A stretch of DNA of 64,000 nucleotides. It comes from Abyssibius alkaniclasticus (lineage in GTDB: Bacteria > Pseudomonadota > Alphaproteobacteria > Rhodobacterales > Rhodobacteraceae). The DNA lies in the NCBI RefSeq assembly GCF_020447305.1, contig NZ_CP095732.1:1830501-1894500 (forward strand). Direction: 5' to 3'. Both the position numbers and the translations under genes were made by a program. Below, one piece after another: positions 2,953 to 21,569 of this stretch (the stretch's first letter is position 1; each line of letters opens with the position of its first letter). The notes beneath the pieces are model-generated. The model saw nothing but the letters and a program-made list of their open reading frames with translations. It made no database searches and was not told where the DNA came from.

Positions 2953-3117
2953 ATGGGCAACCCGTTAAATCATCAGAACAAGGACAGCGATGCCGCAACA
3001 GGATGCTGCGGCGGCGCAGGGCATGGCAAGCCCGCTGCCGAGAAGGCCGCACCGCCCGTGGCTGAAAAGCAGCCGGAACAGGCGGCCAGCTCGGGCTGCC
3101 GTTGCGGCTCCAACTGA
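2953..3117 (+). CDS. 54-residue Cys-rich small protein, putative metal binder
   Basis: The ATG at 2953 is preceded by AAGGAGG with ideal spacing, and the frame encodes 54 residues. There is a CCGGAGHG motif near residue 19 and a C-terminal CRCGSN, giving four cysteines and two histidines. The middle is Ala/Pro/Lys/Glu-rich and looks disordered. There is no signal peptide, so it should be cytoplasmic. No named family is recognised. The clustered Cys and His at both ends and the neighbouring copA, cytochromes and Met-rich protein suggest soft-metal binding or buffering. The excellent ribosome-binding site is the main argument that the gene is real. Confidence 0.6.
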   Translation: MGNPLNHQNKDSDAATGCCGGAGHGKPAAEKAAPPVAEKQPEQAASSGCRCGSN

Positions 3118-3190
3118 TATTTGCTGCGGCGCGGCCTGCATAACGCCGCGCCGCATTGGACGAAGACAGAACTTCAAAAGGAAAATGGCA

Positions 3191-3775
3191 ATGAAAACGC
3201 TAAAAATGCTCGCAACTTCGGCCACGCTGTTGCTGGGCGCAACTGGTGTAGCTTTTGCGCAAAATGATCATGGTCACGCTGCGCAGCAATCTGGCGGGGC
3301 GATGGGGCCAGCCGATGGCACATCTGGCCCGATGGGTGGTGCGCAGGCTGAAATGATGCAAAAGATGATGAGCATGATGATGGGTATGCATGGCCGCATG
3401 ATGGGCGGCGGCATGTCGGGCATGGCAGGCATGGGCGGCATGGATGGCACCATGATGCAGATGATGATGGGGTCTGGCGCGATGGGGATGGCCTCGGCCG
3501 AGGATGCGGCCGCCGCGATGCAGGCACGGCTGACAGAGTTTGATGCCGACGGCAATGGCAGCCTGTCGCTGGACGAATTCGAAACCCTTCACAGCGCCAT
3601 GATCCGCGAGATGATGGTTGATCGGTTCCAATATCTTGACGCCGACGGTGACGGCGCGGTCACACCGACTGAAATGACGGCCCCCGCCATGCGGATGCCG
3701 ATGGGTGCCGATACCGGCGATATGCCGATGGGTGGCGATATGGGCGATATGCCGATGGATGGTGCCAGCAACTGA
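3191..3775 (+). CDS. exported Met-rich EF-hand protein
   Basis: This 194-residue protein begins with a signal peptide (MKTLKMLATSATLLLGATGVAFA, cleavage after AFA). Residues about 45-105 are very rich in Met and Gly (MMQKMMSMMMGMHGRMMGGG and similar), the kind of composition that binds Cu(I) or Ag(I) in periplasmic proteins. Two EF-hand loops follow: DADGNGSLSLDEF and DADGDGAVTPTEM, each with the usual Asp/Asn and Glu ligands, though the second ends in Glu-Met. The tail repeats Met-Pro-Met-Gly units. The ATG at 3191 is chosen over 3185 because AAAAGGA is about 9 bases upstream and the signal peptide starts cleanly. It may be a periplasmic metal buffer; the function is inferred from composition. 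Confidence 0.8.
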   Translation: MKTLKMLATSATLLLGATGVAFAQNDHGHAAQQSGGAMGPADGTSGPMGGAQAEMMQKMMSMMMGMHGRMMGGGMSGMAGMGGMDGTMMQMMMGSGAMGMASAEDAAAAMQARLTEFDADGNGSLSLDEFETLHSAMIREMMVDRFQYLDADGDGAVTPTEMTAPAMRMPMGADTGDMPMGGDMGDMPMDGASN

Positions 3776-4232: not shown

Positions 4233-4340
4233 TCACCGCCGGGCGCCGCCAGTTTGGCGGAAAATCTGTGCGATATGCTCGGGCCTTTGGCGCGCGCCTG
4301 GTCGCGTCTGATTAGCAATTCTAGGACAGGAGCCGAATTC

Positions 4341-4775
4341 ATGATAACCAGCAAAAGCTTGCTTGTCATTGCCGCGGCGGGCGTTGTGGCCCTAGGCGCT
4401 TATTTCGCGCTTCGCCCCGCATCGCAACAGCAGGCCAACGCCACTGCGCAACCAGGTGCCTTTGTCGTGCCCGCTCTTTCGGCCGAGGCACAGGAGGGAG
4501 AACGCTATTACAATGCTGTTTGTGCAGCCTGTCATGGACAGAACGGGCAGGGCACGGCGCAGGGGCCGGCGCTTGTCAACGACATCTATAATCCCGGCCA
4601 TCACGGCGACGAGGCCTTTCAACGCGCCGCAAGGAACGGGGTGCAGGCACATCACTGGCGATTTGGAAACATGCCGCCGCAACAGGTTACTGGCGCCGAA
4701 GTCGCCCGGATCGTTGCTTATATCCGCGAACTTCAACAGGCAAACGGTATCGTAACGCGCCCTCATAACATGTAG
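4341..4775 (+). CDS. membrane-anchored c-type cytochrome, mono-haem
   Basis: This 144-residue protein has an uncleaved-looking N-terminal anchor ([18 protein letters not shown]) and then a periplasmic cytochrome c fold. The haem-attachment motif is CAACH at about residue 56. A candidate distal Met ligand is in [11 protein letters not shown] near residue 115, followed by the usual last helix ([17 protein letters not shown]). It would carry one electron in the periplasm. It is eight bases upstream of copA and is probably co-transcribed with it, a frequent arrangement in copper clusters. AGGACAGGAG precedes the ATG. Confidence 0.88.
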
Positions 4776-4783
4776 GACTACAG

Positions 4784-7147
4784 ATGAATAATTCTTCCTC
4801 CAACCCCGCTGAAAGCCCAACGGTCTATACCTGCCCGATGCATCCCGAGGTGCAGCAGGCCGGGCCGGGGAATTGCCCGAAATGCGGTATGCACCTTGTT
4901 CCCGCCGATCAGGCGGGTGAGCATGGCGAACACGGGCATGGCCATGATCATGCTGCGCACGCGCATTCAGCCACCGCGCGCGGTGAAAAGGGCGGGCGGT
5001 ATGACACCGTGCCAGCCAGCCATCGGGGTGCTGTTTACACCTGCCCGATGCACCCCGAGGTGCGGCAGCCAAAGCCGGGATCATGCCCGATCTGCGGCAT
5101 GGGGCTGGAGCTGGCGACCGCCGCGATGGCCGAAGACGGGCCGAATCCGGAACTGGTGGATTTTACCCGCCGCTTCTGGGTGGGCACGGTGCTGACCATT
5201 CCGCTGCTGGTTCTGACAATGGCCCCCTATCTGGGGTTTTCCGGCGTGCGCGAGATATTCGGTGAGCGCGCAACGCTGTGGATAGAGCTTGTGCTTGGCA
5301 CACCCGTGGTTTTCTGGAGCGGTTGGCCCTTCATGGTGCGTGGCTGGAACTCGTTCCGCACGATGAACCTGAACATGTTCTCGCTGATCAGCATGGGCGT
5401 TATGGCGGCCTGGCTGTTCAGCATCGTTGCGGTTCTGGCACCGGAAATCTTCCCCGACGGTTTTCGTGATGCCGAAGGCCATGTCGGCGTTTATTTCGAG
5501 GCCGCAGCGGTGATCGTGACCCTTGTCTTGCTGGGGCAGGTGATGGAACTGCGCGCCCGCGAAGGCACGGGAAAGGCCATTCGCGCGCTGCTCGATATGG
5601 CGGCCAAGACCGCGCGCATTATCCGTGACGATGGCAGCGAAGAAGAAATTCCGCTGGAAGACGTGCAGGTTGGCGACCGTCTGCGCGTGCGCCCCGGTGA
5701 CAAGGTGCCGGTCGATGGCGCGGTGCTTGAGGGCCGCTCATCGGTGGATGAAAGCATGATTTCGGGCGAACCGGTGCCGGTTGAAAAAACCGAAGGCGAT
5801 GCGCTGACCGGGGCCACGATCAACGGCACCGGCAGCCTGGTGATGGAGGCAACACGGGTTGGGGCCGACACGATGCTGTCGCAAATCGTCGAGATGGTAT
5901 CGAACGCGCAGCGCAGCCGCGCGCCTATCCAGAAATATGCGGACAAGGTTGCCGGATTCTTTGTGCCAGTGGTGATTTTAATCGCGATACTGTCATTCAT
6001 CGCCTGGGCGATCTGGGGGCCGGACCCGGCGCTGAGCTATGCGCTGATTGCGGCGGTCGCGGTGCTGATTATCGCCTGTCCCTGTGCGCTGGGGCTGGCC
6101 ACGCCCATGTCGATCATGACCGCAACGGGCCGTGGTGCGCAGGCCGGGGTGCTGATCAAGAATGCCGAGGCGCTGGAGCGGTTCGAGAAGGTCGACACGC
6201 TGATCGTGGACAAGACCGGCACGCTGACCGAAGGCAAGCCCCGGCTGGTTGCCGTTCTGCCCGAACCCGGCCATGACGAGGCCGAGGTGCTGCGCCTGGC
6301 AGCCTCGCTGGAGCGCGGCTCGGAACATCCGCTGGCCGAGGCCATTGTGCGTGGCGCCGAGGAGCGCGGCGTTGACATGGTGAATGCCAGCGATTTTGAG
6401 GCTGTAACCGGCAAGGGCGTTACCGGCATGGTCGATGGCCGCACGGTTGCACTGGGGAACCTTGCGCTGATCAGGGACATGGGGCTTGACGGCGGCGCGC
6501 TGACCGAAAAGGCCAATGCGCGGCGCGATGAGGGTGAAACCGTGATGTTTGTCGTGCTGGAAGGCAAGATTGCCGGGCTGGTCAGCGTCGCTGACCCGGT
6601 CAAGCAAACAACGCCTGCCGCGCTGAAAGCACTGCACGCGCTGGGCTTTCGGATCATCATGGCCACCGGTGATAACGAGCGCACGGCCAAGGCGATTGGT
6701 GCGCGCCTGGGCATTGACGAGATCCGCGCCGATGTTCTGCCCGAAGACAAGGCCCGGATCATCCGCGAGCTGCAAGAGGCGGGCCGCAAGGTTGCTATGG
6801 CGGGCGACGGGGTGAATGACGCGCCCGCGCTGGCCCAGGCCGATGTCGGCATCGCAATGGGCACCGGCGCCGATGTCGCCATCGAAAGTGCGGGCATTAC
6901 ACTGATCAAGGGCAATCTTGACGGGATCGTGCGCGCCCGGCGCCTGTCGCGTGCCACCATGCGCAATATCCGCCAGAACCTGTTTTTCGCGCTGATCTAC
7001 AACGCCTCTGGCGTGCCGGTGGCCGCAGGCCTTCTGTATCCGTTCTTTGGTATCCTGATCAGCCCAATGTTTGCGGCCTTTGCGATGAGCGCCTCATCCA
7101 TTTCGGTGGTCATGAACGCATTGCGGTTGAGAGGAACCAAAATATGA
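4784..7147 (+). CDS. copA: Cu(+)-type P1B ATPase with two N-terminal heavy-metal-binding domains
   Basis: This 787-residue inner-membrane ATPase exports a soft metal, probably Cu(I). Residues 15-40 and 85-115 are two heavy-metal-binding domains of the TCPMHPEV...CPxCGM type rather than classical GMTCxxC ferredoxin-like domains. A His-rich linker ([15 protein letters not shown]) joins them. The catalytic core is complete: SGEP in the actuator domain, CPC in [11 protein letters not shown] near residue 430 (transport site), the phosphorylated Asp in DKTGTLTEG near 476, SEHPLAEA, and [10 protein letters not shown]. Eight spans are expected. The stop overlaps the next start by ATGA. The two N-terminal domains are of the same type as those in the complex I-like fusion protein at 17.6-19.4 kb. 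Confidence 0.93.
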
Positions 7148-8422: not shown

Positions 8423-9739
8423 ATGCAGCATAACCACAAGGATGAGACCTATCGCAAAGGCTCGATCAGCCTGGGCAGTGCTGTTGCAATGGGCACGGGG
8501 GTCATGATCGGGGCGGGGATATTCGCACTGACCGGCCAAATCGCCCAATTGGCCGGACCCTTGTTTCCGCTGGCCTTCATTCTTGGCGCCATCGTCACCA
8601 GTTTCAGCGCCTATAGCTATATCAAAATGTCCAATGCCTGGCCCTCGGCCGGGGGCATCGCGATGATCTTGCAAAAATGCTATGGCCCCGGGGCGATTGC
8701 CGCGGGTGCGGCACTTTTGATGGCGCTGAGCATGGTCATTGCCGAAAGCCTGGTGGCGCGCACATTCGCCACCTATGTGCTGCGGCCCTTTGACATTACC
8801 AGCGGGCCGCTCGTGCCCGTTCTGGCAGTGGCGGTGATCCTGTTCGCCTTTCTTGTCAACATCGCCGGCAACCGCTCGGTCGGGCTGTTTTCGCTGATCA
8901 TGGCCGCAATCAAGATCGGTGGAATCGCGCTGTTTGGCATTGCGGCGCTTTGGTCCAGCGGCTTTCAGTTTGCCGCAGCATCACAGGCGGGCAATTCCTT
9001 TGGCGTTGTTGGCTTCGTTGCCTCGGTTGCGCTGGCGATTCTTGCCTTCAAGGGCTTTACGACCATTACCAATAGTGGCGGCGAAATTACCGACCCGCAT
9101 CGCAATGTGGGCCGCACGATCATCATCTCCATCGCAATTTGCGTTGTGGTTTACCTGCTTGTGGCCTTTGGCGTGGGGGCAAGCCTGACGATTGACGAGA
9201 TCATCGCCGCGCGTGACTATGCGCTGGCCGAGGCGGCAGCCCCCGCGCTTGGGCAGGTCGGGTTTTTCCTGACCGTGCTGCTGGCGGCGGTGGCCACGGC
9301 CTCGGGCGTGCTGGCCAGTGTGTTTGCCGTCTCACGCATGTTGACGATGCTGACCGACATGAAGATGATCCCGCATAGTCATTTTGGCATGTCCGGAAAT
9401 ATCCGGCGCCATATGCTTGTCTATACGGTGGTCATCGCTTCGGCGCTGGCAGTGTTCTTCGATCTTGGGCGGATCGCCTCGCTGGGCGCGTTTTTCTACC
9501 TGGTCATGGATATGACCGTGCATTGGGGCGTTTTGCGCTATCGCCGCGCCGAAATCGGCGCCTCGGGGGCGGTATTGCTCGCGGCGCTTGTGCTGGATGC
9601 GGTGGTGCTGGCCGCCTTCACGGCCATGAAACTGCAAAGTGATCCCGCAATTGTTATCTATGCCCTGGTTGCAATTGCCGTGGTTTTTGGATTTGAACGT
9701 GTTTATCTGCGCGGCTGGATGGACCAACCCGCGCAATAG
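8423..9739 (+). CDS. APC superfamily amino-acid permease
   Basis: This 438-residue protein is predicted to have 12 spans. The APC hallmark is in helix 1, where SLGSAVAMGTGVMIGAGIFA contains the unwound GxGIFA-type substrate loop. A KGFTTITNSGGEI segment in the middle corresponds to the conserved Phe/Glu-rich region of helix 6-loop 7. Secondary import of amino acids or polyamines is the family role, and the substrate cannot be deduced. The ATG at 8423 has AAGGAAGG and GGGGCAGG upstream. The mixed neighbourhood of cytochromes and a haem membrane protein offers no clue to the substrate. Confidence 0.85.
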   Translation: MQHNHKDETYRKGSISLGSAVAMGTGVMIGAGIFALTGQIAQLAGPLFPLAFILGAIVTSFSAYSYIKMSNAWPSAGGIAMILQKCYGPGAIAAGAALLMALSMVIAESLVARTFATYVLRPFDITSGPLVPVLAVAVILFAFLVNIAGNRSVGLFSLIMAAIKIGGIALFGIAALWSSGFQFAAASQAGNSFGVVGFVASVALAILAFKGFTTITNSGGEITDPHRNVGRTIIISIAICVVVYLLVAFGVGASLTIDEIIAARDYALAEAAAPALGQVGFFLTVLLAAVATASGVLASVFAVSRMLTMLTDMKMIPHSHFGMSGNIRRHMLVYTVVIASALAVFFDLGRIASLGAFFYLVMDMTVHWGVLRYRRAEIGASGAVLLAALVLDAVVLAAFTAMKLQSDPAIVIYALVAIAVVFGFERVYLRGWMDQPAQ

Positions 9740-11152: not shown

Positions 11153-12508
11153 TCAGGGAAGCAGAAAACCCGCAAGCGCGCCAAGGCCAAGTGTTGCCGC
11201 CGCCGTCAGGGCAAGAACCGCTGCCAAGGAAAGCCCGACCGGGCCAGCGGCGGCGCTGTCCGCGCTGCGATACATCGGCACCACCATGCGCAGGTAAACC
11301 CCAAGTGCAAGAACCGAGTTCAGAATGCCGATGACCGCAAGCCACAGATACCCCGCCTCGATTGCCGCCATGAACAGATAGAGCTTGCCGACAAAGCCGA
11401 AAAGCGGCGGAATGCCGGTGAGCGACAGTAGGAACACCACCATCGCCCCCCCAAGCCAGGGGCGCGTTCGCCCAAACCCCTGCAAGCTTTCAAGCGACCG
11501 GCCGGCGACCATGACAATTGCAAAGGCCCCCAGATTCATTGCCACATAGGCCGCCGCAAAAACCAAAATTGCAGGCGTTGCGACCAGGCTGACGCCCAGC
11601 GCCACAACGCCCATCAGGATATACCCCGATTGCGCCACCGAGGAATAGGCGATCAGCCGCACGAGATTGGTTTGCACCAGCGCCGCCAGATAGCCATAGG
11701 TCATTGTTACCGCCGAGATCAGCGCCAGCGCAAGCGGCCAGCCCCCCTCGCGCGGGAGGTCGCGCAGCACCTGGGCAAAGGCAAAAAATGCCGCCGCCTT
11801 GGTAATGACCGAAAGATAGGCCGCAACCGAGACGGGCGCGCCGTCATAGGCATCGGGCGCCCAGAAGTGGAACGGCACCAGCGACGCCTTGTAGCCAAGC
11901 CCCACGATCACCGCGATCAGCCCGGCAATGGATAACAGCGTCTGGCCGCTAAGCTGGCCAAGTTCCGAAAACAGGGTCGAGCCGGAGCCGCCAAACCAGA
12001 AGGTCAGCCCGTAGATCATGACCGATCCGGTAACCGCGCCAAAAACCAGGTATTTCATCCCGGCTTCGGTGGCGGCATCGTCGCGCGGATAGGCGACCAG
12101 CGCGAAAGAGCCAAGCCCGGTCAGCACCACGCCGATGACGAGGACCATCATATCGCCCGCCCCCGACAGCATCAGCGCGCCCAGCGTAACCAGCACGATC
12201 AGCGAATAGACGCTGCCTTCGCGGTCGCGCCCGGCAATTTCGGCCCGCGCCATAAGCAGTGCAAGTGCTGTGCCCGGCAGCAAGATCAGCTTGGCCCATC
12301 CGGCGATGGTGTCAATCCGGTAGGTGCCGCCGAACACGGTTGTATCAGCCTTCAGCACCGCGAATGTCAGCATGGTAGACGCGGCCAGCGCCAGAATGCC
12401 GATGGCAAGCACCAGCCGCGATGCGCGCGCCATTTCCGCCACGATCATCAGCATGGCGGCGGCTGCCAGCAGCAGTTCGGGCGCAAGAAGGGACAGATCG
12501 TTCAACAT
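11153..12508 (-). CDS. nuoN: NuoN-like antiporter subunit of the complex I-like operon
   Basis: This 451-residue protein has about 13-14 spans and is the last gene of the operon. It retains the central lysine region (GYKASLVPFHFWAPDAYDGAP) and the broken-helix lysine (VITKAAAFFAF). The usual glutamate of helix 5 (the Glu in ELLSL-type motifs) is missing: the sequence there is VLTGLGSFALVAYPRDDAA, with LKYFVLGA-type MKYLVFGAV following. NuoN normally forms one of three antiporter-like proton channels. Loss of the helix-5 Glu suggests altered or uncoupled pumping in this subunit. Its ATG shares the A of the nuoM TGA. Confidence 0.88.
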   Translation of the reverse strand: MLNDLSLLAPELLLAAAAMLMIVAEMARASRLVLAIGILALAASTMLTFAVLKADTTVFGGTYRIDTIAGWAKLILLPGTALALLMARAEIAGRDREGSVYSLIVLVTLGALMLSGAGDMMVLVIGVVLTGLGSFALVAYPRDDAATEAGMKYLVFGAVTGSVMIYGLTFWFGGSGSTLFSELGQLSGQTLLSIAGLIAVIVGLGYKASLVPFHFWAPDAYDGAPVSVAAYLSVITKAAAFFAFAQVLRDLPREGGWPLALALISAVTMTYGYLAALVQTNLVRLIAYSSVAQSGYILMGVVALGVSLVATPAILVFAAAYVAMNLGAFAIVMVAGRSLESLQGFGRTRPWLGGAMVVFLLSLTGIPPLFGFVGKLYLFMAAIEAGYLWLAVIGILNSVLALGVYLRMVVPMYRSADSAAAGPVGLSLAAVLALTAAATLGLGALAGFLLP

Positions 12509-13968
12509 CAGATGCCAAGGCCCGTCATGGTGGTGTGGATAAGGCCAATCAGCCAGCCGGGGGCAACGCCAACCAGAACCGTCAGCACCAGCAGCGGCAC
12601 AATCACCAGTTTTTCGCGGCGGTCCAGATCGGGCAGATCGGCCCATTTCGGGTTGGCCTCGCCCAGAAACACCGCCGCGATGGCGCGCAGATACAGCGCC
12701 GCTGTCACCACGATTGCCAATATTGCGATAATCGCCCAGGGTGCTGCGTTGAGCGTGGCCAGAAACACCTGAAATTCTGCCGGGAAATGCGCCAGCCCCG
12801 GCAGGCCGAGCGAGGCAAAGGCCGACAGGATGAAGGCCCATCCAAGCCAGGGCAGGCGGGTGAGAAGCCCGCCAAAATCAGCCATGTTGCGGCTATGGGC
12901 GCGGTCTTGCACCATGCCGACAAGGAAGAACAGCGCGCCTGTGACCAGCCCGTGGCTGACCATTTGCAATGTGGCCCCGTCAAGCGCGATGGTGCGCATA
13001 CGCGGGTCACTCGCCAGCGCCGCCACAGCGACACCCATCACGACATAGCCCATATGGTTGACCGAGGTATAGGCGATCATCTTTTTCAGATCGGTCTGCG
13101 CAAGTGCTGCAAAGGCGCCATAAAGCGCGCTGACCACCCCAAAGGCCAGGATGACCTGACCGGCTTGCGCGAATGCTTCGGGCGTCATCTGAAAGGCAAA
13201 GCGCACCAGCCCGTAGGTGCCGAATTTCAGCATCACCCCCGCCAGAATTACGCTGCCCGCCGTGGGCGCCTGCACATGCGCGGCCGGAAGCCATGTATGC
13301 ACCGGGAAGGCCGGAATCTTGACGGCAAAGGTAAACAGCATGGCGATCAGCGCCAGCATGGCGGCAAGGCCGGTCAGCGGCGGTGCGTCAATCCAGACCC
13401 GCATGTCAAAGCTGCCCGAGCCAAGATAAAGCCCGATAATGGCCAGCAGCAGGGGAAGCGACCCCAGCAGCGTATAGATAAAGAACATCAGCGCCGCCTT
13501 CTGGCGCTCCTCGTAGCCCCAACCGGCGATCATGAAATACATGCCCACCAGCGAGACCTCGAAGAAGACGTAAAACAGCAGACCGTCAAGCGCCATGAAC
13601 GTGCCAAGTGCTGCGGTTTCCAGCATCAGCATCAGCACCACAAAGCTTGGCGCGCGGTCGCTGATGCGCGCCGAATAGATGGCCGAAAGCAGGAACAGCA
13701 GCGCGGTCAGCAGCACCAGCGGCAGGCTCAGCCCGTCCAGGCCTAGCCGATAGGCCGCGCCGATGGCGGGGATCCAGGTGAATTCCTCGATTTGCGCAAA
13801 CCCGTCTGGCACGATGCCGCGCGCCCAGATCGCCAGCGTGATCAGGAACACCGCCCCGGTGGCTGCGATGGAGATCTGATGCGCGATGCGCGCGGTCTGT
13901 TTTGGCAGGGCCATAAGGGCAAGTCCTGCAAGGATCGGCAGGAATGTGGCGATGGTCAAAAGCGGCAT
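12508..13968 (-). CDS. nuoM: NuoM-like antiporter subunit
   Basis: This 486-residue protein has about 14 spans. The functional residues are conserved: the helix-5 Glu (LFYVFFEVSLVGMYFMI), the helix-7 Lys and following loop (VKIPAFPVHTWLPAAHVQAPT, including His-Thr-Trp-Leu-Pro), the helix-8 Lys (AGVMLKFGTYGLVRF) and later YTSVNHMGYVVMG. It therefore looks like an active proton-translocating subunit, the most canonical in the operon. It starts 11 bases after the nuoL stop, and its stop overlaps the nuoN start (TGATG). Confidence 0.92.
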   Translation of the reverse strand: MPLLTIATFLPILAGLALMALPKQTARIAHQISIAATGAVFLITLAIWARGIVPDGFAQIEEFTWIPAIGAAYRLGLDGLSLPLVLLTALLFLLSAIYSARISDRAPSFVVLMLMLETAALGTFMALDGLLFYVFFEVSLVGMYFMIAGWGYEERQKAALMFFIYTLLGSLPLLLAIIGLYLGSGSFDMRVWIDAPPLTGLAAMLALIAMLFTFAVKIPAFPVHTWLPAAHVQAPTAGSVILAGVMLKFGTYGLVRFAFQMTPEAFAQAGQVILAFGVVSALYGAFAALAQTDLKKMIAYTSVNHMGYVVMGVAVAALASDPRMRTIALDGATLQMVSHGLVTGALFFLVGMVQDRAHSRNMADFGGLLTRLPWLGWAFILSAFASLGLPGLAHFPAEFQVFLATLNAAPWAIIAILAIVVTAALYLRAIAAVFLGEANPKWADLPDLDRREKLVIVPLLVLTVLVGVAPGWLIGLIHTTMTGLGI

Positions 13969-13979
13969 GAGCGTGAGCC

Positions 13980-15878
13980 TTAAAGATAAAATGGGGCGGC
14001 AAGCAGCACGGCAACGACAAGGGCGATTCCTGCGAAGGTCATTGCCATTTCCCGGTGGATGAGGCCGCTTTGCAGGCGGCGCGCGCGGGCACCCAGCGCG
14101 ATGGTGCGGTCCACCAGCCCGAAAATCGCGCCGTCGATCGTGTCGCGGTCGGTGCGGCGGGTCGCCTGGCCGATTTTCAGATTGAACCGGCCGATCGCAC
14201 GCACGGCTGCGAGCAGACGGGTTTCAGCATTCTGAACACGTGATGCAAGGGCGCGCGCCCCGCCAGCAACAGCACCAAACGCGACAGCGCGAATGATCCA
14301 CTGGTCAAGTCGGTCGCAAGCGCGCGCCAGCGCCAGCGCGGGGCGGGCGAGCAGCATGTCCATGCCGCCCGCAACCGCAAAGCCGTTGCGCGCCGGGGCC
14401 AGCAGCGGGCCGAGCAGCCGGGCAGGCGGCAGCAGCCAGCCAAGCGCAAGCCCGCCAATTCCGGCGGCCAGCCCCATTGCGGGGATGACCCATGAAGGCT
14501 TGGGCAATTCCGCGCCCAGCATTGCCTCCAGCGGTTTGAAGCCGAAACCGAGCGTGGCCGCAAGCGCAACCAGAATGCCCATGCCCAGGGCCATCAGCGG
14601 CACCGCGCCTTGGCGCCTGCCGGATTCGCCCGACCACAACACCCGCAGCGCGCGGGCCAAATAGGCGCCGGTCAGCACCGAGCCCAGCAGCGCCAGCGGC
14701 AGCAGCCAGGGCGCGAAGGGGCTGTCCAGCGCGGCGGCAAGGATGGCATCCTTTGAAGTATAGGCCGCCATCGGTGGCAGGCCCGCCAGCGCCAGCGCGG
14801 CCAGCGCGAAGCCTGCAAATATGCCGACCCGGGCGCGCCCCGCCCCGGCCAGCGCGTCAAGGTCGGTGCTGTCGCGGTCATGCTGAAAGACGCCCGCACC
14901 AAGAAACAACGAGGATTTGATTGCCGCATGGGCGATCAGGTGCAGCAGCGCGGCCATTGGCACGCCCGCCCCCAGCGCCACCAGCATCAGCCCGTATTGG
15001 CTGGCGGTAGATGCGGCAAGCAGGCGCTTGAGGTCGCGCGCGGCCAGCGCCATCAGCCCGGCCACAACGGCGGTGAGCCCGCCGACAAACCCCACGGCCA
15101 GCAGCGCGCCAACCGGCAGCATCGGGGCAGCGCGGATCAGCAGGATCGCGCCCGCCGCAACCAGCGTTGCCGAATGCAGCAGCGCCGAAACCGGCGTCGG
15201 CCCAGCCATTGCGCGCATAAGCCAGTCTTGCATGGGCACCTGCGCCGATTTTCCCATAGCCGCAAACAGCAGCAAAAGCCCGGCAACAAGCGCCGGGGCG
15301 CCGGTGGTGCCAAGGGTGGCGGAAATCTCGGATGTGCCTGCCACACCGATCAGCAGGAAGGCCGCGATATAAAGCCCCAGATCGGCACTGCGCGTGTAGA
15401 GAAACGCCCGCATGGCGGCCGTGGGCACGCCTGCGCGCCCATGCCAAAAGCCGATCAGCAGGTAAGAGGCGAAACCGATCATCTCCCATGCCGCCAGAAG
15501 TGTGATCCAGTCACCCGACAGCACCAAAAGCTCCATCGCGGCGATGAACAGCAGCATCGTGCCGAAAAAACGGGTCTTTTCAGGGTCATGCGCCATGTAG
15601 CCCAGCGCATAGGTCAGAACCAGAGCCGCGACCGTGGCAACCATCAGCGCCAGTGTCGCGGTCAGCGGGCTGGCCAGCAGCCGGATCGGCAATTCAGGCA
15701 GAAAGGGCAGGGTGGCGGAAATTTCCCCACCGCCTGTGGCGCCTGCAAACAGCCCAAGCGCACCGGCAAGCCCAAGCCATGCGCCCGCCAGCGCCACTGC
15801 GCCCGGCGCGCGCCGAAGCGCGAAAACCGCAAGCGCAGCAATAAGCGGCGCCAGAAGCGTGAGCGCCAGCCAGATCAT
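13980..15878 (-). CDS. nuoL: NuoL-like antiporter subunit
   Basis: This 632-residue protein has the antiporter fold and a C-terminal extension with a lateral amphipathic region (LARACDRLDQWIIRAVAFGAVAG) and a last anchor (GIALVVAVLLAAPFYL), as in true NuoL. The key Glu (LLAAWEMIGFASYLLIGFWHG) and Lys (MGKSAQVPMQDWL) are present, and AGPTPVSALLHSATLVAAG follows. Canonical HTWLPDAM is changed to QDWLMRAM, losing the conserved His and Asp. The ATG at 15878 overlaps the nuoK stop by ATGA and gives the typical short N-terminus. It is the distal pump module of the complex I-like machine. Confidence 0.9.
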   Translation of the reverse strand: MIWLALTLLAPLIAALAVFALRRAPGAVALAGAWLGLAGALGLFAGATGGGEISATLPFLPELPIRLLASPLTATLALMVATVAALVLTYALGYMAHDPEKTRFFGTMLLFIAAMELLVLSGDWITLLAAWEMIGFASYLLIGFWHGRAGVPTAAMRAFLYTRSADLGLYIAAFLLIGVAGTSEISATLGTTGAPALVAGLLLLFAAMGKSAQVPMQDWLMRAMAGPTPVSALLHSATLVAAGAILLIRAAPMLPVGALLAVGFVGGLTAVVAGLMALAARDLKRLLAASTASQYGLMLVALGAGVPMAALLHLIAHAAIKSSLFLGAGVFQHDRDSTDLDALAGAGRARVGIFAGFALAALALAGLPPMAAYTSKDAILAAALDSPFAPWLLPLALLGSVLTGAYLARALRVLWSGESGRRQGAVPLMALGMGILVALAATLGFGFKPLEAMLGAELPKPSWVIPAMGLAAGIGGLALGWLLPPARLLGPLLAPARNGFAVAGGMDMLLARPALALARACDRLDQWIIRAVAFGAVAGGARALASRVQNAETRLLAAVRAIGRFNLKIGQATRRTDRDTIDGAIFGLVDRTIALGARARRLQSGLIHREMAMTFAGIALVVAVLLAAPFYL

Positions 15879-16186
15879 CCTTTCAACTCCCGCGCTTCTT
15901 CCATCTCGACCGAGCCGCGCGAACGGAACCGGGCAATGGCAATGCCAAAGCCAACCGCCATTTCCACCGCCATCACCGCCATGACGATCAGCACGAACAT
16001 CTTGGCAGCCGTCACTTCGGGGTGCAGGTAGCGCCAGAAGGCGACCAAGTTCAACAACGCGGCGGCCAGCACCAGCTCTACCCCCATGATGATCATCACC
16101 AGGTTGGTCTGGCTCAGCGCGCCGTAAAGCCCGATTGCAAAAAGCACCGCGCCAACGCTGAGCGCGATCATCAGTTCGGGTATCAT
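15875..16186 (-). CDS. nuoK: NuoK-like subunit
   Basis: This 103-residue protein has three spans. Both glutamates that form the proton path in NuoK are present: MIIMGVELVLAAALLNLVAF (first Glu) and VMAVMAVEMAVGFGIAIARF (second Glu). The N-terminal GLYGALSQTNLVMI matches the GxYGLLxRRN region, with polar substitutions. The C-terminus is charged (RSRGSVEMEEARELKG) and the length equals that of canonical NuoK. It overlaps nuoJ and nuoL by ATGA on both sides, implying tight stoichiometric translation. Confidence 0.92.
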   Translation of the reverse strand: MIPELMIALSVGAVLFAIGLYGALSQTNLVMIIMGVELVLAAALLNLVAFWRYLHPEVTAAKMFVLIVMAVMAVEMAVGFGIAIARFRSRGSVEMEEARELKG

Positions 16187-16701
16187 GGCCTGTCCTTTTC
16201 CTGCGGCGCAATCGCCACCATTGTTGCGGCGATCATCGCGGTCAAAATCATCAGCGCGGCGCTTTCAAAGACGAACATCGAGCGGCCCAGAATTTCGCGG
16301 CCAAGTGCGCGCGCCTGCTCATCGGCACCCGGCACCTCGGGCACCGGCCCTTGCCAGCCGGCGGTCCAGATTACGGCCAGCGCCGCCACCAGGCCAATGC
16401 CCCCGGCCCAGAGCGACAGGCGTTTCTGGTGGGTCATGTCCATCTTGCCCATGCCGCCCGGGTCCATCATGAACATCACCATGAAAATCGCCATGACGCT
16501 CATTTCGGTGGCCATCATCATGATTTGCAGAACACCCAGGAATTCGGCCTGCATGACCAGAAACATCGCGCCAATGGCGGTTTGGCTGAACAGCAGCGCA
16601 ATGGCCGACCGCACCATCGAATGCGTGCGGAACACAACAATGCCGAACCAGATTGCGGCAATGCCAAAAAAGGCAAGGAAAAAGGCGGTGGCAAAGCTCA
16701 T
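16183..16701 (-). CDS. nuoJ: NuoJ-like subunit
   Basis: This 172-residue membrane protein begins MSFATAFFLAFFGIAAIWFG, as NuoJ does. The third helix region QAEFLGVLQIMMMATEMSVMAIFMVMFMM corresponds to the canonical EFLALIQILVYAGAVxVLFLFVVMML. Here the conserved Tyr-x-Gly-Ala pi-bulge sequence, which rotates in complex I turnover, is replaced by Met-Ala-Thr-Glu-Met, and the helix is strikingly Met-rich. The start at 16701 overlaps the nuoH stop by ATGA. The Met enrichment fits the metal theme but may be chance. Confidence 0.87.
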   Translation of the reverse strand: MSFATAFFLAFFGIAAIWFGIVVFRTHSMVRSAIALLFSQTAIGAMFLVMQAEFLGVLQIMMMATEMSVMAIFMVMFMMDPGGMGKMDMTHQKRLSLWAGGIGLVAALAVIWTAGWQGPVPEVPGADEQARALGREILGRSMFVFESAALMILTAMIAATMVAIAPQEKDRP

Positions 16702-17597
16702 AGCGGCACCACAAGGGCGATGACGCCCACCAGAAAGATATTGGCCAGCGCCAGCGAAATGCCGAGCTTCCAGCTGACGGCCAGGTAGCGCGCCTCGCGC
16801 AAGCGCGGTAAATGCCGGCCCCCCAGCAGCAATGCCGCAATCACGGCCAGCGTCTTGAGCGCGCTCCAGGCCCAGCCCGGCAGCCACGGCCCCAGCCAAC
16901 CGCCAAGGTAGAAGGTAACGGTGGCACCGGCCAGCGCCACAATGATCACCAGCCGCGCCAGCCGGAACACGGCCAGCCGCGCGCCGGTGTATTCGGCCGT
17001 GACCCCGCTGGCCAGATCGCCGCCGCCGGTGGGCAGGTCGACCGGTGGCAGCCAGGCCACGCCCATTGCGGCAACCACGAACAGCACAAAGCCGATGGGC
17101 TGATAGGCAATGTTCCAAAGCCCCGCCTGCGACAGCACGATCTGGGTGGTGGACAGCGATTCCGCCCGCATCGCCACCGCCGTGATCGGCATGACGATCA
17201 GCATGGCATAGGCAATGAACTGGCCCAGAAAGCGCCAGCCCGAGATCATCCCGTAAGCCCCGTTCGGCCCCCATCCGGCCATGATCAGCGCCACCAGAAC
17301 ATAGGCCAGCGCGGCGTTCAAAAACAGCGCGCCGATGGCCAGGTCGGTAATGATCAGCCCCGGCGCCAGCGGGATGACCGCCACCGCCAGCAGCCCGGCG
17401 ATCAGCAAAAGCACCGGTCCGGCCTCGTAATACAGCCGGTCGGGCGTGCGCGGCATGATCTGTTCGCGCCCCAGCAGTGCCAGCGCCGAAATGGCGGGCC
17501 GTGTCAGGCTGAGGCGGCCGTGGACCGCCCAACCCTCCAGCACGGCAACCGCGTAGCAGCCGAGCGCGAGCGCGAACAGGATGATGAATATGGTCAT
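16698..17597 (-). CDS. nuoH: NuoH-like subunit with altered quinone chamber
   Basis: This 299-residue protein has about eight spans and is slightly shorter than canonical NuoH (about 325-345). It is recognised by the PPVDLPTGGGDLASGVTAEY segment and the FYLGGWLGPW segment near the C-terminus. In respiratory NuoH this region reads AETNRxPFDLPEGExELVAGfxtEYSG. Here the Ala-Glu and the EGExE acids are Gly-Val and TGGGD, so most of the acidic residues that line the quinone chamber and link it to the proton channels are missing. Only the AEY glutamate is kept. The N-terminal amphipathic RVGPNR-type loop is also absent. A membrane-arm anchor role is likely and quinone reduction is unlikely. Confidence 0.85.
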   Translation of the reverse strand: MTIFIILFALALGCYAVAVLEGWAVHGRLSLTRPAISALALLGREQIMPRTPDRLYYEAGPVLLLIAGLLAVAVIPLAPGLIITDLAIGALFLNAALAYVLVALIMAGWGPNGAYGMISGWRFLGQFIAYAMLIVMPITAVAMRAESLSTTQIVLSQAGLWNIAYQPIGFVLFVVAAMGVAWLPPVDLPTGGGDLASGVTAEYTGARLAVFRLARLVIIVALAGATVTFYLGGWLGPWLPGWAWSALKTLAVIAALLLGGRHLPRLREARYLAVSWKLGISLALANIFLVGVIALVVPL

Positions 17598-19432
17598 GCG
17601 ACTGCCCCCCAGGGATCGAGGTCGAGCGAGCCGATGGCGACAAGCGCCTCGGCCAGTTCCAGTTGCGCGCTCATCGGCCCGACAAGCCCGGCAAGCGCGG
17701 CAAAGGGTGTTGTCAGATGCATTGTTTCAACCAATCCGCCCTTGAGGTTCAGGTGCAGCGTGGCAGGGCCGCGCGGGGTTTCAACCGTCGCCATACCATG
17801 CCCTGATATGGGCAGAGGAACGGGTGGGGCGGGCAGGGCAATGGCCCCGGCGCGCGCGATCAGATCGAGGCTTTGGTCTATCTCGGCCAGCCGCTGCACC
17901 AAACGCGCCCAGGCATCACCCCCCGTCTGGCTTAGCGGCTGAAAGTCGAGCGCGGCATAGGCTTTGTCATGTGTCCGGGCGTCTGGCGCATCGCCGGCGG
18001 CGCGCGCCACGGGCCCGCCAGGCTTGCTGGCGGCTTTGGGCTCGATCCGCCCGATATTGGCCAGCCGGTCGCGTAAAAGCGGTGTGCGGCTCACGCGTTT
18101 GGCAAGGGCGCGGATGGCCGGCGCGCGCCGTGCAACCGCGTCTTTGTCGGCTACGCGCAATCCGGCAAGCTGCGCGCCTACGCGGCGTTCGAGCCACATC
18201 AGCCCGGATTGCCGCGCCAGCCCGGCAATCCAGCCCAGATGGCTGGCCAAGCGTTCGCGTTCTAGCGCGGCAGCACGGGCGGAGGCACCTTCGGGGGATA
18301 GGCCCGCCGCCGCCTCCAGCGCCCGGCAGGCCAGTTCACGCAAGGCCAAAGGGGCAAGCGGCGAGAGCGCAGCGAGCCTGTCGGGCAAATCGGCGGCTGG
18401 AAAACCCGATGCCAAAGCCGAAGCCGCAAGACTTTTGACCTCGGCGCGGGCCACGCTGTCGCCGTCAAGCGTAAGCATCAGCCCCAAGCCAGCCGGAAGC
18501 CCCGGGAAAAACGGGCCAAATGGCACCTCGATCCACTCCATGACCAACCCGTCCGGACTGGCGGGCTTCCCTTCGGTCAGGGCAACCATCGACATGAAAT
18601 GTGGCTCAATTCCGGGGATGTCGGGCGCGGGGCCGTGGCCCTCATGGCCATCATGTGCGCCATCGGCTTTGGGAGCGGAATGACCGGCATGGCCCGCACC
18701 CTCACCCTGCCGCACGAGATTCATGCCGCATTTCGGGCAGGAGCCGGGGGTGGAGGAGGTAACCTCGGGGTGCATGGGGCAGGTATAGGGTGCCGGTTCT
18801 TCCGCGGCGCGGACAATCGCATCAGACGACACCATCTTTTCGGCTTGTGCCGGGCGCGCGGTTGATTTTTCATGGCCTTCATGGCCAGTCATTCCCGAAC
18901 CCGACACTTCGCGTTCGACCAGAAACATTCCGCATTTGGGGCATTTTCCGGGTGAGTCCGAAACCACTTCGGGGTGCATCGGGCAGGTATATTCGATCCG
19001 CGTTGACAGGGCCGGAGCGGTAAAATCTGTCACATGCGGCGCAAAGGCACCCGAAACGAAGGCGCGGCGAATATCGGCGAGCGCCGAGGTCAGGCTGCCT
19101 TGGCTTAGCGCGCCGGTCGCATCGGCTTCGGGCAGCGGGGCGATATTGCCGGCATCCAGCGCCAGAATGGCGCGGGGCCGTGGCATTTGCGCCCAGACAA
19201 CGCAGGCGGCATCGCGCAGCGCGGGGGGCATCGGCCCGACGATCAGAAGCAGATTGGCATGGCGCGGCGTGTCGGCGCGGTGCAGCCCGGCGGCGACCAG
19301 ATCCAGCCCGAAGGCCTGTGCCACATCAGCGCCCGGCACAACGAAGGCGCACAGGTCATGCGCCATTGCGCGCGCAACCAGAGCGCGAAGGCCCGTCATC
19401 GCCCCCTGGCCAGCCCCTGAAAGCATGTTCAT
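17594..19432 (-). CDS. NuoB-like / double heavy-metal-binding / NuoD-like fusion protein, redox ligands lost
   Basis: This 612-residue cytoplasmic protein sits where nuoB and nuoD should be. Residues 15-125 follow the NuoB fold: DTPRHANLLLIVGPMPPALR and QMPRPRAILALDAG align with TPRQSDVMIVAGT and QMPEPRWVISMGSC. The tandem Cys and later Cys that ligate cluster N2 are gone, leaving only C28 and C77. Residues 148-172 and 216-240 are two heavy-metal-binding domains (TCPMHPEV then CPKCGM: C150/C164/C167 and C218/C232/C235), with His/Gly-rich linkers. Residues 295-612 follow NuoD/[NiFe]-hydrogenase large subunits (VPFGPFFP, LTLDGDSVARAEV, RERLASHLGWIAGLA, GDAWARLVQRLAEID, IGSLDLDPWGA), but the quinone-site His motif and the terminal Cys motif are absent. 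ATGA overlaps bind it to nuoA and nuoH. The role is inferred: a metal-responsive peripheral arm. Confidence 0.85.
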   Translation of the reverse strand: MNMLSGAGQGAMTGLRALVARAMAHDLCAFVVPGADVAQAFGLDLVAAGLHRADTPRHANLLLIVGPMPPALRDAACVVWAQMPRPRAILALDAGNIAPLPEADATGALSQGSLTSALADIRRAFVSGAFAPHVTDFTAPALSTRIEYTCPMHPEVVSDSPGKCPKCGMFLVEREVSGSGMTGHEGHEKSTARPAQAEKMVSSDAIVRAAEEPAPYTCPMHPEVTSSTPGSCPKCGMNLVRQGEGAGHAGHSAPKADGAHDGHEGHGPAPDIPGIEPHFMSMVALTEGKPASPDGLVMEWIEVPFGPFFPGLPAGLGLMLTLDGDSVARAEVKSLAASALASGFPAADLPDRLAALSPLAPLALRELACRALEAAAGLSPEGASARAAALERERLASHLGWIAGLARQSGLMWLERRVGAQLAGLRVADKDAVARRAPAIRALAKRVSRTPLLRDRLANIGRIEPKAASKPGGPVARAAGDAPDARTHDKAYAALDFQPLSQTGGDAWARLVQRLAEIDQSLDLIARAGAIALPAPPVPLPISGHGMATVETPRGPATLHLNLKGGLVETMHLTTPFAALAGLVGPMSAQLELAEALVAIGSLDLDPWGAVA

Positions 19433-19791
19433 TGCCGCCTCAACGCGCCCTGGGACCAGCCATAGAGCAGCCCAAGGAACAAAACGGCAAGGAAAACGCC
19501 CATGTCGAGCAGGGCCACCAGACCCTCTTCGCGATAAACGACCGCCCAAGGATACATGAAGGCCATTTCCATATCGAAGGCAAGAAACAGCAGCGCATAG
19601 CCATAATATTTGGCGTGGTAGCGCACCCAGACCGGGTCGCGCGACAATGTGCCAGCGGTCGCGGGCACGTCTTTGGCCGGTTCGGCGCGACCCCGCCCGA
19701 TAACCCTGGCCAGCGCATAAAGGCTGATGACAAATCCCAAAGTGCCAAGGGTCAGTCCGAACAGAATGGCGTATTGGGCAAGTTCACTCAT
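19429..19791 (-). CDS. nuoA: NuoA-like subunit, first gene of the complex I-like operon
   Basis: This 120-residue protein has three spans. The KYYGYALLFLAFDMEMAFMY and PWAVVYREEG segments match the NuoA core, with the conserved Phe-Asp-x-Glu. The long loop that normally carries the quinone-site cysteine (YECGFDP) instead reads GTLSRDPVWVRYHAKYYG and has no Cys, consistent with the loss of quinone residues in NuoH. The start at 19791 (MSELAQYAILFGLTLG) gives the normal N-terminus; a longer frame upstream is ignored. The stop overlaps the fusion gene by ATGA. Confidence 0.88.
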   Translation of the reverse strand: MSELAQYAILFGLTLGTLGFVISLYALARVIGRGRAEPAKDVPATAGTLSRDPVWVRYHAKYYGYALLFLAFDMEMAFMYPWAVVYREEGLVALLDMGVFLAVLFLGLLYGWSQGALRRQ

Positions 19792-20121: not shown

Positions 20122-21486
20122 TTGCCAACGCGGGGCAATTCGGGGCTGCTGGTGGCAGCCTGGGTTACGCATGGGACGGGGATTTTCAAAGTCGACCCTG
20201 AACGCAACATCGTCATTCCCGACGCGTTGGAAAGCACCCTTCAGGTGAAGGTAGCCTTTGATGGCGAAACGATCTGGTTTCGTTACCGCTGGCCGGTCGA
20301 ACGGCCCAGCCTGTTCAATGACGTGCTGGTCTATCAGGATGGGGAATGGATTGCGCGCGGCGGTGAAGCACTTGGCCCCAATCCCGATTTCCTGACCGAG
20401 GACCGGGTCGCGATGATGATCGACGACGGCTCGGTGCCGCTGTTCTCGCGCTATGGCGGCTATATAACCATTGGCGACGGGCTGACCACATTTACCGGCA
20501 CGCCGGAGACCGAAGAGGAACGGACCAAATATCTGCCCGATACGCGGACCGATCCAAACGATTTTGATACAATCCGGCCTGAAAGCGATTTGCAGATGCT
20601 GCGCGCGGCGGGCCAGTTCATTGACCTGTGGCAATGGCGGTCGAGCCGGTCCAACCCGATCGGGCTGGGCGATGACGGGTTTGTTGCCGAAGAACGCGGC
20701 GGCGATGCGGGCGATGGCCCCTACATCACCAATTTCGACTATGCCGCTGGCCAGCCCATGTTCATGTTCAACCCCGATGTGGCGGGCTACCGCGCATTGG
20801 CGATTGACGATGTGACCTCGGCTGCTGTCGGCTTTAACGACACCTATTATCTGAGCGCCGAAACCGCTGTGCCCTTCGACCCCGACTATGCCTGGCAGAA
20901 TGGCGATACGATTCCACGCCGTTTCCTGCAACCGGAAACAGGGTCACGCGCAGATGTGGTGCAGCCCGCCTCGGCGCGCTGGCGCAATGGGTTCTGGGAT
21001 GTGACCTTGCAGCGCAGCATGGATACCGGCAACCCGCTGGATGACAAGATTTTCCGCGATCGCCGCAGCTATGACCTGGCCTTCGCGGTGTTTCGCAACG
21101 CCTCGACGATGCGCTGGCACTCTATCTCGCTGCCCGTGTCGCTGGGGCTGGGCACGACTGCACAAATTCAGGCACGACGCTCCGAGCCGGGCCAGCCCGA
21201 CTGGACAGGCCCCTGGACCGAGATCGAGGTTTACTATCCCGGTCAGATAACCTGGGGGCGGCTTGTCGACCTGCGCCAGCACCCCGGTGCAGACCGGATC
21301 GCGGCGCGCGTGCCGGTGGCCTATCGTCATAGCGAACGCCAGCTTGCGCTTTACGGGATCGAGATGGAGTTTGCCGAAGAGATTCGCAGCCAATGGCTCT
21401 GGACCCTTGCGATGAGCCTGTCATTGATCGTGGCCTTTGGCGTGGCAATGGTGCTGCTGTTCCGTCGTCCAGAGGGCAAGGCATGA
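20122..21486 (+). CDS. ethylbenzene-dehydrogenase-type haem-binding protein (5' end damaged or unusual)
   Basis: This frame of about 454 residues matches the EB_dh/cytochrome c-552-like haem-binding domain: TLQVKVAFDGETIWFRYRW, a long acidic middle, WRNGFWDVTLQRSM, then DLAFAVFRNASTMRWHSISL. A C-terminal membrane anchor follows (WTLAMSLSLIVAFGVAMVLLF) with a positive end. Such proteins are periplasmic and need a signal peptide. None is encoded in frame: the frame opens after TGA 20092-20094 and has no ATG, only TTG at 20122. A strong ribosome-binding site at 20049-20056 leads into other frames, one of which contains a signal-like LLSGLANA. A frameshift near 20130-20160 or decay is likely. Confidence 0.6.
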   Translation: MPTRGNSGLLVAAWVTHGTGIFKVDPERNIVIPDALESTLQVKVAFDGETIWFRYRWPVERPSLFNDVLVYQDGEWIARGGEALGPNPDFLTEDRVAMMIDDGSVPLFSRYGGYITIGDGLTTFTGTPETEEERTKYLPDTRTDPNDFDTIRPESDLQMLRAAGQFIDLWQWRSSRSNPIGLGDDGFVAEERGGDAGDGPYITNFDYAAGQPMFMFNPDVAGYRALAIDDVTSAAVGFNDTYYLSAETAVPFDPDYAWQNGDTIPRRFLQPETGSRADVVQPASARWRNGFWDVTLQRSMDTGNPLDDKIFRDRRSYDLAFAVFRNASTMRWHSISLPVSLGLGTTAQIQARRSEPGQPDWTGPWTEIEVYYPGQITWGRLVDLRQHPGADRIAARVPVAYRHSERQLALYGIEMEFAEEIRSQWLWTLAMSLSLIVAFGVAMVLLFRRPEGKA

Positions 21487-21569
21487 GCGCGCAATTGCAA
21501 TATCATCAAAACCCAAGAGAATACGGGGAACCGAACATGAAACCTGCACGTCAATATTGACCGGCCATT

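Follow-up and report, generated by a model that had tools for sequence, protein, structure and literature searches.

In respiratory complex I, the E-channel comprises NuoH Glu157, NuoA Asp79, NuoJ Gly61 (at the pi-bulge), NuoJ Glu55, NuoK Glu36 and Glu72, and NuoN Glu133 (PMC8357420). The Na+ exit path of the Mrp antiporters coincides with this channel, and where MrpA has Glu706, a residue that Na+ transport requires, complex I has Tyr59 (PMC7419157). CusA, an exporter of Cu(I) driven by the proton motive force, combines a membrane methionine relay with a proton relay (PMC8092243). A complex I-like gene set has also been met in a copper setting, since Eddie et al. (2021) described nuoADHJKL inside a copper-resistance operon of Marinobacter atlanticus, co-expressed with copper genes, and guessed that copper redox chemistry is its energy source (PMC8233155). 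Partial Nuo sets are moreover recorded on plasmids of many species in PMC12361115, the consulted part of which does not discuss the arrangement treated here. In this study, we analyzed an eight-gene operon in a 64,000-nucleotide stretch of the genome of Abyssibius alkaniclasticus (contig NZ_CP095732.1, positions 1,830,501 to 1,894,500; hereafter the window), which encodes a relative of complex I that lacks electron-handling sites and whose function may be copper movement powered by the proton gradient.

The family to which this operon belongs shares with respiratory complex I the orthologous subunits A, H, J, K, L, M and N and degenerate forms of the B and D folds. However, it has neither the C, E, F, G and I subunits nor the N2 cysteines and the quinone His motif, the ends of its E-channel are lost, and it has acquired a methionine-rich J/K/A core and a metal-binding arm. 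The M. atlanticus operon is similar in placing nuoADHJKL within a co-expressed copper operon but, compared by description, it differs in that no nuoM or nuoN is reported and neither a B/D fusion nor a methionine helix is mentioned in the consulted part of the paper (PMC8233155). The first-pass annotation of the window, made from its letters alone, had allowed that homologues might turn out to be an already characterized complex. Within the open-licence literature, we found neither such a homologue nor any account of the fused arm or of the methionine helix, the Marinobacter report being a single, partial prior sighting (PMC8233155).

The eight genes lie on the minus strand at positions 11153-19791 of the window, in the order A-[B/HMBD/HMBD/D]-H-J-K-L-M-N, where HMBD denotes a metal-binding domain (Table 1). 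Four-base ATGA overlaps join A to the fusion, the fusion to H, H to J, J to K and K to L, and M and N are joined by TGATG, so that six of the seven junctions overlap and only L and M are separated, by 11 bases. Pfam and NCBIfam confirm each membrane subunit as being of the complex I type, most of them below the NCBIfam equivalog cut-offs, with NuoM above that of TIGR01972 and NuoK above one of its own. Among the eight genes, Pfam detected no C, E, F, G or I gene, no hydrogenase or Mrp gene, no set corresponding to MrpA-G (all membrane subunits are of the NuoA, H, J, K, L, M and N types) and no DabA-type protein. The gene order, the overlaps and the missing modules had all been described by the first-pass annotation, and coordinates and Pfam agree with it. 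Its view that an HMBD fusion stands "in place of" NuoB and NuoD was mistaken, as both are present as degenerate halves around the HMBDs.

Among the further loci of the family, 44 of 56 contain all eight genes, in the same order in every one of the 44, and most of the other 12 are broken or are cut by contig ends or assembly gaps. The operon is real and is a member of a conserved, horizontally spread family. Two subtypes can be distinguished. Type I has a long fusion, as in the window, whereas type II, with the same gene order, has a fused B/D protein of 366-438 amino acids that lacks HMBDs and a long His linker. Interrupted or split copies, some with long intergenic gaps, occur at loci L057, L083, L095, L103 and L104.

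The first-pass annotation assigned metal binding to the cytoplasmic arm, but a stronger sign of metal coupling, which it missed, is found in NuoJ. Here the residues of interest between positions 61 and 91 (...LQIMMMATEMSVMAIFMVMFMMDPGGMGKMDMTHQ) are M61, M62, M63, E66, M67, M70, M74, M76, M78, M79, M87, M89 and H91. Methionine occupies positions 29, 61, 62, 63, 67, 70, 74, 78, 79, 87 and 89 in 54 of 54 family rows and in none of 22 ordinary NuoJ sequences, and residue 66 is Glu in all 54 of the former and Ala in all 22 of the latter. D80 and H91 are equally constant in the family (54 of 54), and M63, with which Escherichia coli NuoJ Tyr59 aligns, sits in place of the invariant Tyr of ordinary NuoJ. 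When the two subtypes are taken together, 22 residues of NuoJ are invariant, and 11 of these are Met. Moreover, the motif was read in 30 of 31 loci with a strong NuoJ profile match (the 31st, L213, has ambiguous bases) and in none of eight loci with a weak match. As aligned, helix 3 of NuoJ is a methionine helix with a new Glu, kept in both subtypes.

The enrichment extends to the adjoining subunits. In type I, NuoA has fixed M74, M76, M79 and H59 (50 of 50 rows) and retains Asp79 and Glu81 (E. coli numbers), NuoK has fixed M31, M69 and M72 (56 of 56) with both of its E-channel Glu positions still acidic, and NuoH has fixed M117, M132, M136 and M143 (56 of 56). In type II, M76, M79 and H59 of NuoA and M31 and M72 of NuoK recur in all five rows. 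New family-fixed Met residues account for 22 of 686 columns in A, H, J and K versus 5 of 1498 in L, M and N (p = 1e-7), and one of the latter five is a start-codon artefact. No invariant Cys was found in A, H, J, K, M or N, and a single NuoL column is Cys in 38 of 48 rows. Short or gapped proteins are left out of these residue tables, type II counts leave out L215 and L227 (fragmentary annotation and ambiguous bases), and L085, the same record as L052, was dropped everywhere.

The E-channel itself has been remodelled. NuoH Glu157 is lost in 56 of 56 type I and three of five type II sequences, and NuoN Glu133 in 48 of 48 and five of five. Of the two NuoK carboxylates, Glu36 is retained, and among 56 rows position 72 holds Glu in 53 and Asp in three. 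NuoA Asp79 is conserved in type I, and type II sequences have either Asp or Glu there. Beyond the channel, NuoL keeps E144, D178, K229, H254, H334, H338, K342 and K399 (48 of 48 rows), NuoM keeps E144, K234, K265 and E407 in 48 of 48 type I rows, with Asp replacing E144 in type II, and NuoN keeps K217, K247 and K395 (47-48 of 48). Because these proton residues are kept while the ends of the E-channel are lost, the L, M and N pump subunits look functional and their link to a quinone site has been rebuilt.

Judged by profile and fold matches, NuoB and NuoD persist as one fused, degenerate protein. Pfam finds PF19335 on the fusion (97.3 bits, two stretches) and a NuoD match but does not call NuoB. 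In the PDB, a family profile built from 34 fusions hits NuoD chains, an HMBD chain that bears the name copper-translocating P-type ATPase, and NuoB/PSST chains, the last of these at profile positions 43-93. The AlphaFold2 model contains two ordered halves and disordered linkers (mean predicted local distance difference test score, pLDDT, 80.1), and its best Foldseek matches are NuoD-type large subunits of formate hydrogenlyase (FHL) and complex I, with no NuoB among the 50 listed. Large subunits of FHL and of membrane-bound hydrogenase (MBH) are thus among the best fold and profile matches of the arm, a likeness to the group 4 [NiFe] hydrogenases. However, the D-like half has no invariant Cys (12 rows) and no conserved Cys ligands of a NiFe center, and the membrane subunits are complex I orthologues.

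The sites of redox chemistry have degenerated in both halves. No Cys is conserved in the B-like half (12 aligned rows), and any Cys at all within residues 26-130 occurs in only 13 of 44 fusions, compared with a CC motif in 13 of 13 ordinary NuoB proteins. The quinone motif GPQHPxxHG is found in 0 of 44 fusions versus 12 of 18 ordinary NuoD proteins, the D-like halves having a GPFFPGLPAG-like sequence there. In complex I, it is well established that the NuoB Cys and NuoD motif sites hold cluster N2 and the quinone. Twelve of the 56 loci are left out of these fusion counts on account of a missing flanking gene, a split protein or assembly gaps.

The metal domain, by comparison across the family, is accessory. 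The 44 complete type I fusions other than that of the window contain zero (3), one (8), two (15), three (12), four (2) or five (4) HMBDs and from 12 to 65 His residues, and the three without HMBDs (two from Chloroflexota, one from Hymenobacter) have His/Met-rich linkers. None of the five type II fusions examined over their whole length contains an HMBD, and NuoJ has a His-rich tail in all five aligned type II sequences. We therefore dropped the HMBD as a family-defining feature. Hymenobacter and Chloroflexota are the first branches within the NuoM clade, which suggests that HMBDs were a later addition. Separately, near-identical fusions (L054, L056, L058, L069, L070 and others) differ in HMBD number and in the length of an HEG-repeat run, as expected of slippage-prone repeats, and the fusion on the L057 plasmid is annotated as two proteins.

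Members of the family, many of them plasmid-borne, occur in Alpha- and Gammaproteobacteria, Actinomycetota, Chloroflexota and Bacteroidota. Twelve plasmids carry the operon, in Paracoccus (3), Sulfitobacter (4), Thioclava, Roseovarius, Nitratireductor and Rubrobacter (2). A scan of 84,980 species, one genome each, for the NuoD-like half yielded 45 loci in Alphaproteobacteria, two gammaproteobacterial metagenome-assembled genomes (MAGs), Actinomycetota, Chloroflexota and one Hymenobacter, a number that is an under-count because two short peptides were needed for a hit. NuoJ profile scores are bimodal (strong matches at E of at most 3e-33 versus weak, canonical ones at E of at least 7e-23), and strong matches occur in 16 of 369 gammaproteobacterial genomes (13 type I, three type II), 31 of 376 from Actinomycetota and 4 of 365 from Bacteroidota, counts that include the genome on which each search was centered. 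The D-like profile, which would miss type II, found 2 of 400 Chloroflexota genomes at E < 1e-60. Genomes were drawn evenly across each group, and these counts are not species frequencies. Type II is known from plasmids of Halomonas KO116 and Arthrobacter FB24 and from three gammaproteobacterial genomes. Among 385 genomes of the alphaproteobacterial class, the D-like half of the window alone gave a strong match in its own genome and nowhere else, and the whole fusion searched against 60 relatives returned mainly HMBDs of other proteins and weak NuoD and NuoB matches, with its own genome giving the only full-length match. Loci L023, L024 and L026 were rejected as relatives, having only weak matches. 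Two family copies coexist in each of two genomes, G1011 (L225 and L227) and G1392.

The first-pass annotation had foreseen several outcomes that bear on this family. It asked whether the fusion is conserved outside its own genome, and relatives do exist on plasmids and in several phyla. It proposed a tree of NuoH, L, M and N against respiratory complex I, Mrp, hydrogenase-4 and DAB2. Our tree covers part of this, with L, M and N only and without Mrp or DAB; in it, each of the three joins the matching subunit of complex I, and long branches were flagged. It also raised the case of nuoCEFGI elsewhere in the genome, and these genes are indeed present, in a canonical complex I at about 2.65-2.66 Mb, some 0.8 Mb from the operon, but with canonical subunits of their own. 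Finally, it suggested a further branch with a metal arm. Sequence comparison supports a conserved clade of their own for these complex I-like membrane modules and their metal-binding arm, with metal genes as neighbors and no electron-input genes, but the HMBD arm does not define this clade (absent from 3 of 44 type I and from five type II fusions). A second NuoF-type gene (PF01512), in a 597-amino-acid frame, lies at positions 1927579-1928061 of the A. alkaniclasticus contig (L002), some 33 kb beyond the window and separate from the canonical complex I.

Selection has acted most strictly on J and K. In comparisons with four relatives, the ratio of nonsynonymous to synonymous substitution rates (dN/dS) falls between 0.027 and 0.167 for all but one of 30 gene pairs (the remaining one being inestimable), with the lowest values in J and K (0.027-0.044) and the highest in L, N and the fusion (0.12-0.17). 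Median identity of the family to the window is 81% for J, 86% for K, 67% for L and 50% for the fusion. J does not rank with the better conserved subunits when the ordinary complex I of the host genomes is considered, with median identities to the copy in the A. alkaniclasticus genome of 60% for J, 61% for H, 59% for L, 67% for M, 58% for N and 78% for K.

The operon also has a copper context, as anticipated by the first-pass annotation. Of the 45 loci with 4 kb or more of flank, 30 have a copper or metal marker, or 19 of 32 once the loci that supplied the markers are removed, versus 1 of 20 arbitrary 20-kb regions of host genomes (19/32 against 1/20, p = 8e-5). The markers were taken from the window and plasmid loci. 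The controls lie on large, mostly chromosomal contigs, so a plasmid bias is possible in this comparison. CsoR-type regulators and CPC-type ATPases flank the Actinomycetota and Chloroflexota copies as well, and the type II loci L214 and L216 sit within copper islands. Beside alphaproteobacterial copies, P-type ATPases read CPD for CPC in L058, L070 and L095, and five further loci have no CPC.

Table 1. Features of the operon and of its surroundings, in window coordinates.
Feature	Position	Strand	Evidence
NuoA-like subunit, 120 aa	19429..19791	-	Pfam PF00507
Fused arm protein, 612 aa, NuoB-like/HMBD/HMBD/NuoD-like	17594..19432	-	Pfam, PDB profile matches, AlphaFold2, Foldseek
NuoB-like half, residues ~1-140, no conserved Cys	19013..19432	-	12-row alignment, PDB profile
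HMBD 1 (CPMHP...CPKCGM), residues 148-173	18914..18991	-	PF19335
HMBD 2, residues ~216-241, motif at residue 218	18710..18787	-	PF19335
NuoD-like half, residues 279-612, GPFFPGLPAG for GPQHPxxHG	17597..18598	-	Alignments, motif counts
NuoH-like subunit, 299 aa	16698..17597	-	PF00146
NuoJ-like subunit, 172 aa	16183..16701	-	PF00499
NuoJ Met helix and loop, residues 61-91	16429..16521	-	Alignments of both subtypes
NuoK-like subunit, 103 aa	15875..16186	-	PF00420
NuoL-like antiporter subunit, 632 aa, proton residues kept	13980..15878	-	Pfam, residue table
NuoM-like antiporter subunit, 486 aa, proton residues kept	12508..13968	-	Pfam/NCBIfam, residue table
NuoN-like antiporter subunit, 451 aa, without Glu133 but with its Lys residues	11153..12508	-	Pfam, residue table
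APC permease; homologues (70-82% identical) flank three plasmid operon copies	8423..9739	+	Neighbor
Copper-type P-ATPase, CPC motif, two HMBDs sharing 54% identity with the HMBDs of the fusion	4784..7147	+	Neighbor
Open reading frame with CxxCH haem motif; homologues flank five family loci	4254..4775	+	Sequence; neighbor
Open reading frame with Met-rich stretch, the Met-rich protein of the first-pass annotation	2990..3775	+	Sequence; neighbor

A DUF6629 gene lies beside the operon in 19 of 57 loci (for example at L054:2208-2894) and in none of the 20 control regions. In the window, a divergent ethylbenzene-dehydrogenase-type haem protein and a DUF2231 protein (20122-22232) adjoin nuoA, and their homologues (81% and 70% identical, respectively) lie beside the operon only in the Paracoccaceae MAG L102.

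Taken together, we give an even chance to the proposal that the product of the operon is a non-redox complex I derivative in which proton flow through L, M and N is coupled, via J, K, A and perhaps H, to movement of a soft metal, most likely Cu(I) and perhaps Ag(I). This proposal is supported by the invariant Met residues and E66 of NuoJ, the concentration of Met in A, H, J and K, the lost ends of the E-channel, the kept proton residues of L, M and N, the cytoplasmic HMBD and His ligands, the copper markers in the flanks and the strongest constraint falling on J and K. A more specific version, to which we give slightly less than even weight, is a Cu(I)/H+ antiporter in which the pi-bulge Met helix of NuoJ would replace the carboxylate E-channel and a pseudo-Q-module would feed metal in the place of electrons, the whole having been spread by plasmids across at least five phyla as a copper-resistance machine. 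This would be a third use of the membrane machinery of complex I.

We infer that the products form one complex, which would act like an Mrp cation/proton antiporter and probably export its metal. The pseudo-B/D arm would gather metal on the cytoplasmic side, through HMBDs and His-rich linkers in type I or with help from the His-rich NuoJ tail in type II, and would deliver it to NuoJ, at its Met/His loop and Met helix. The metal might then descend to a site at M63 and E66, beside the retained carboxylates of A and K. This scheme is drawn from the position shared by MrpA Glu706 and Tyr59 of complex I (PMC7419157) and from the Met relay of CusA (PMC8092243). The proposed working principle would be that of Mrp, with the putative metal site at the position of MrpA Glu706 (PMC7419157), but the operon keeps A, H, M and N and a B/D arm, has no MrpB, E, F or G, and offers Met where Mrp has a carboxylate for Na+. 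With CusA, which is an unrelated protein of the resistance-nodulation-division (RND) type, the family would share the use of the proton motive force and the relay of Cu(I) by membrane methionines (PMC8092243).

Several observations weigh against this proposal. Of the 32 independent loci whose flanks reach 4 kb or more, 13 show no metal marker, and CueR- and CsoR-like boxes upstream of nuoA are not above chance (1 and 2 of 53 stretches, four of which have a doubtful start). The NuoH Met residues are not retained in the five type II rows. The nine Met of NuoJ helix 3 form no single stripe (resultant 0.16, p = 0.68), an arrangement that we considered and abandoned; only Met 63, 67, 70, 74 and 78 lie with E66 on one face. 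The NuoJ structure model (pLDDT 60.8) is too weak to use, and the facing of these residues within the complex is consequently not visible from it. That the Met run lies towards the cytoplasm is suggested by a weak positive-inside count of loop charges. Moreover, the family rows are not independent, as the set, which was not made non-redundant, includes several near-identical plasmid copies.

Alternatively, the complex could be a metal-gated proton valve or sensor, as the first-pass annotation imagined, in which a soft metal, bound by the arm and by the helix of NuoJ, would switch flow through L, M and N on or off and so tune the proton gradient under metal stress, without itself being transported. 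We regard this as unlikely. Metal ligands do occur both in the arm and at the pi-bulge helix, which moves in complex I (PMC8357420), and the antiporter residues are kept, but a valve would not need Met across J, K, A and, in type I, H, and a proton leak would be an odd cargo for copper islands. Less probable still is a role in supply rather than detoxification, whereby Cu(I) would be delivered to the periplasm or into the cell for the assembly of cuproproteins such as oxidases, cupredoxins and multicopper oxidases. Although cytochromes, cupredoxins and multicopper oxidases are among the neighbors, most neighbors are resistance determinants on mobile elements (CopA-type ATPases, CusA, CopB and CsoR/CueR-type regulators).

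An ion pump powered by electrons from copper, as proposed from co-expression with copper genes for Marinobacter (PMC8233155), is very improbable here. The lack of conserved Cys in the B-like half and in A, H, J, K, M and N (with one NuoL column at 38 of 48), the absence of the quinone His motif from all 44 fusions, type II without HMBDs and an operon without an electron carrier all speak against it, and we dropped the redox reading for want of conserved Cys and a quinone motif. We assign a similarly small chance to an antiporter of like kind for another metal (Zn, Cd, Ag or Hg) or a monovalent cation. HMBDs and His-rich linkers are not copper-specific, and arsenic, cation diffusion facilitator (CDF) and other metal genes occur in some islands. 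However, thioether ligands favor Cu(I) and Ag(I), and copper genes dominate the neighbors. A spare membrane arm working with the canonical NADH module of the host is scarcely credible even though ordinary NuoJ is found in 21 of 22 host genomes searched (the A. alkaniclasticus genome and those of 21 of the 45 loci, the exception being a gammaproteobacterial MAG), since the B/D-like arm lacks the features that join Fe-S and quinone chemistry and the operon travels alone between phyla.

It has long been asked how complex I connects its quinone site with three proton channels that lie far from it. In the evolution of this family, the channels have been kept, the redox chemistry has been removed and the linking region has been rebuilt. 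Should metal binding drive proton flow, or the reverse, then the coupling step would be open to study without electron transfer. If the proposal of soft-metal movement coupled to proton flow is true, these operons would represent metal transporters of a new class, which commonly carry the annotation NADH dehydrogenase and travel on plasmids together with copper resistance.

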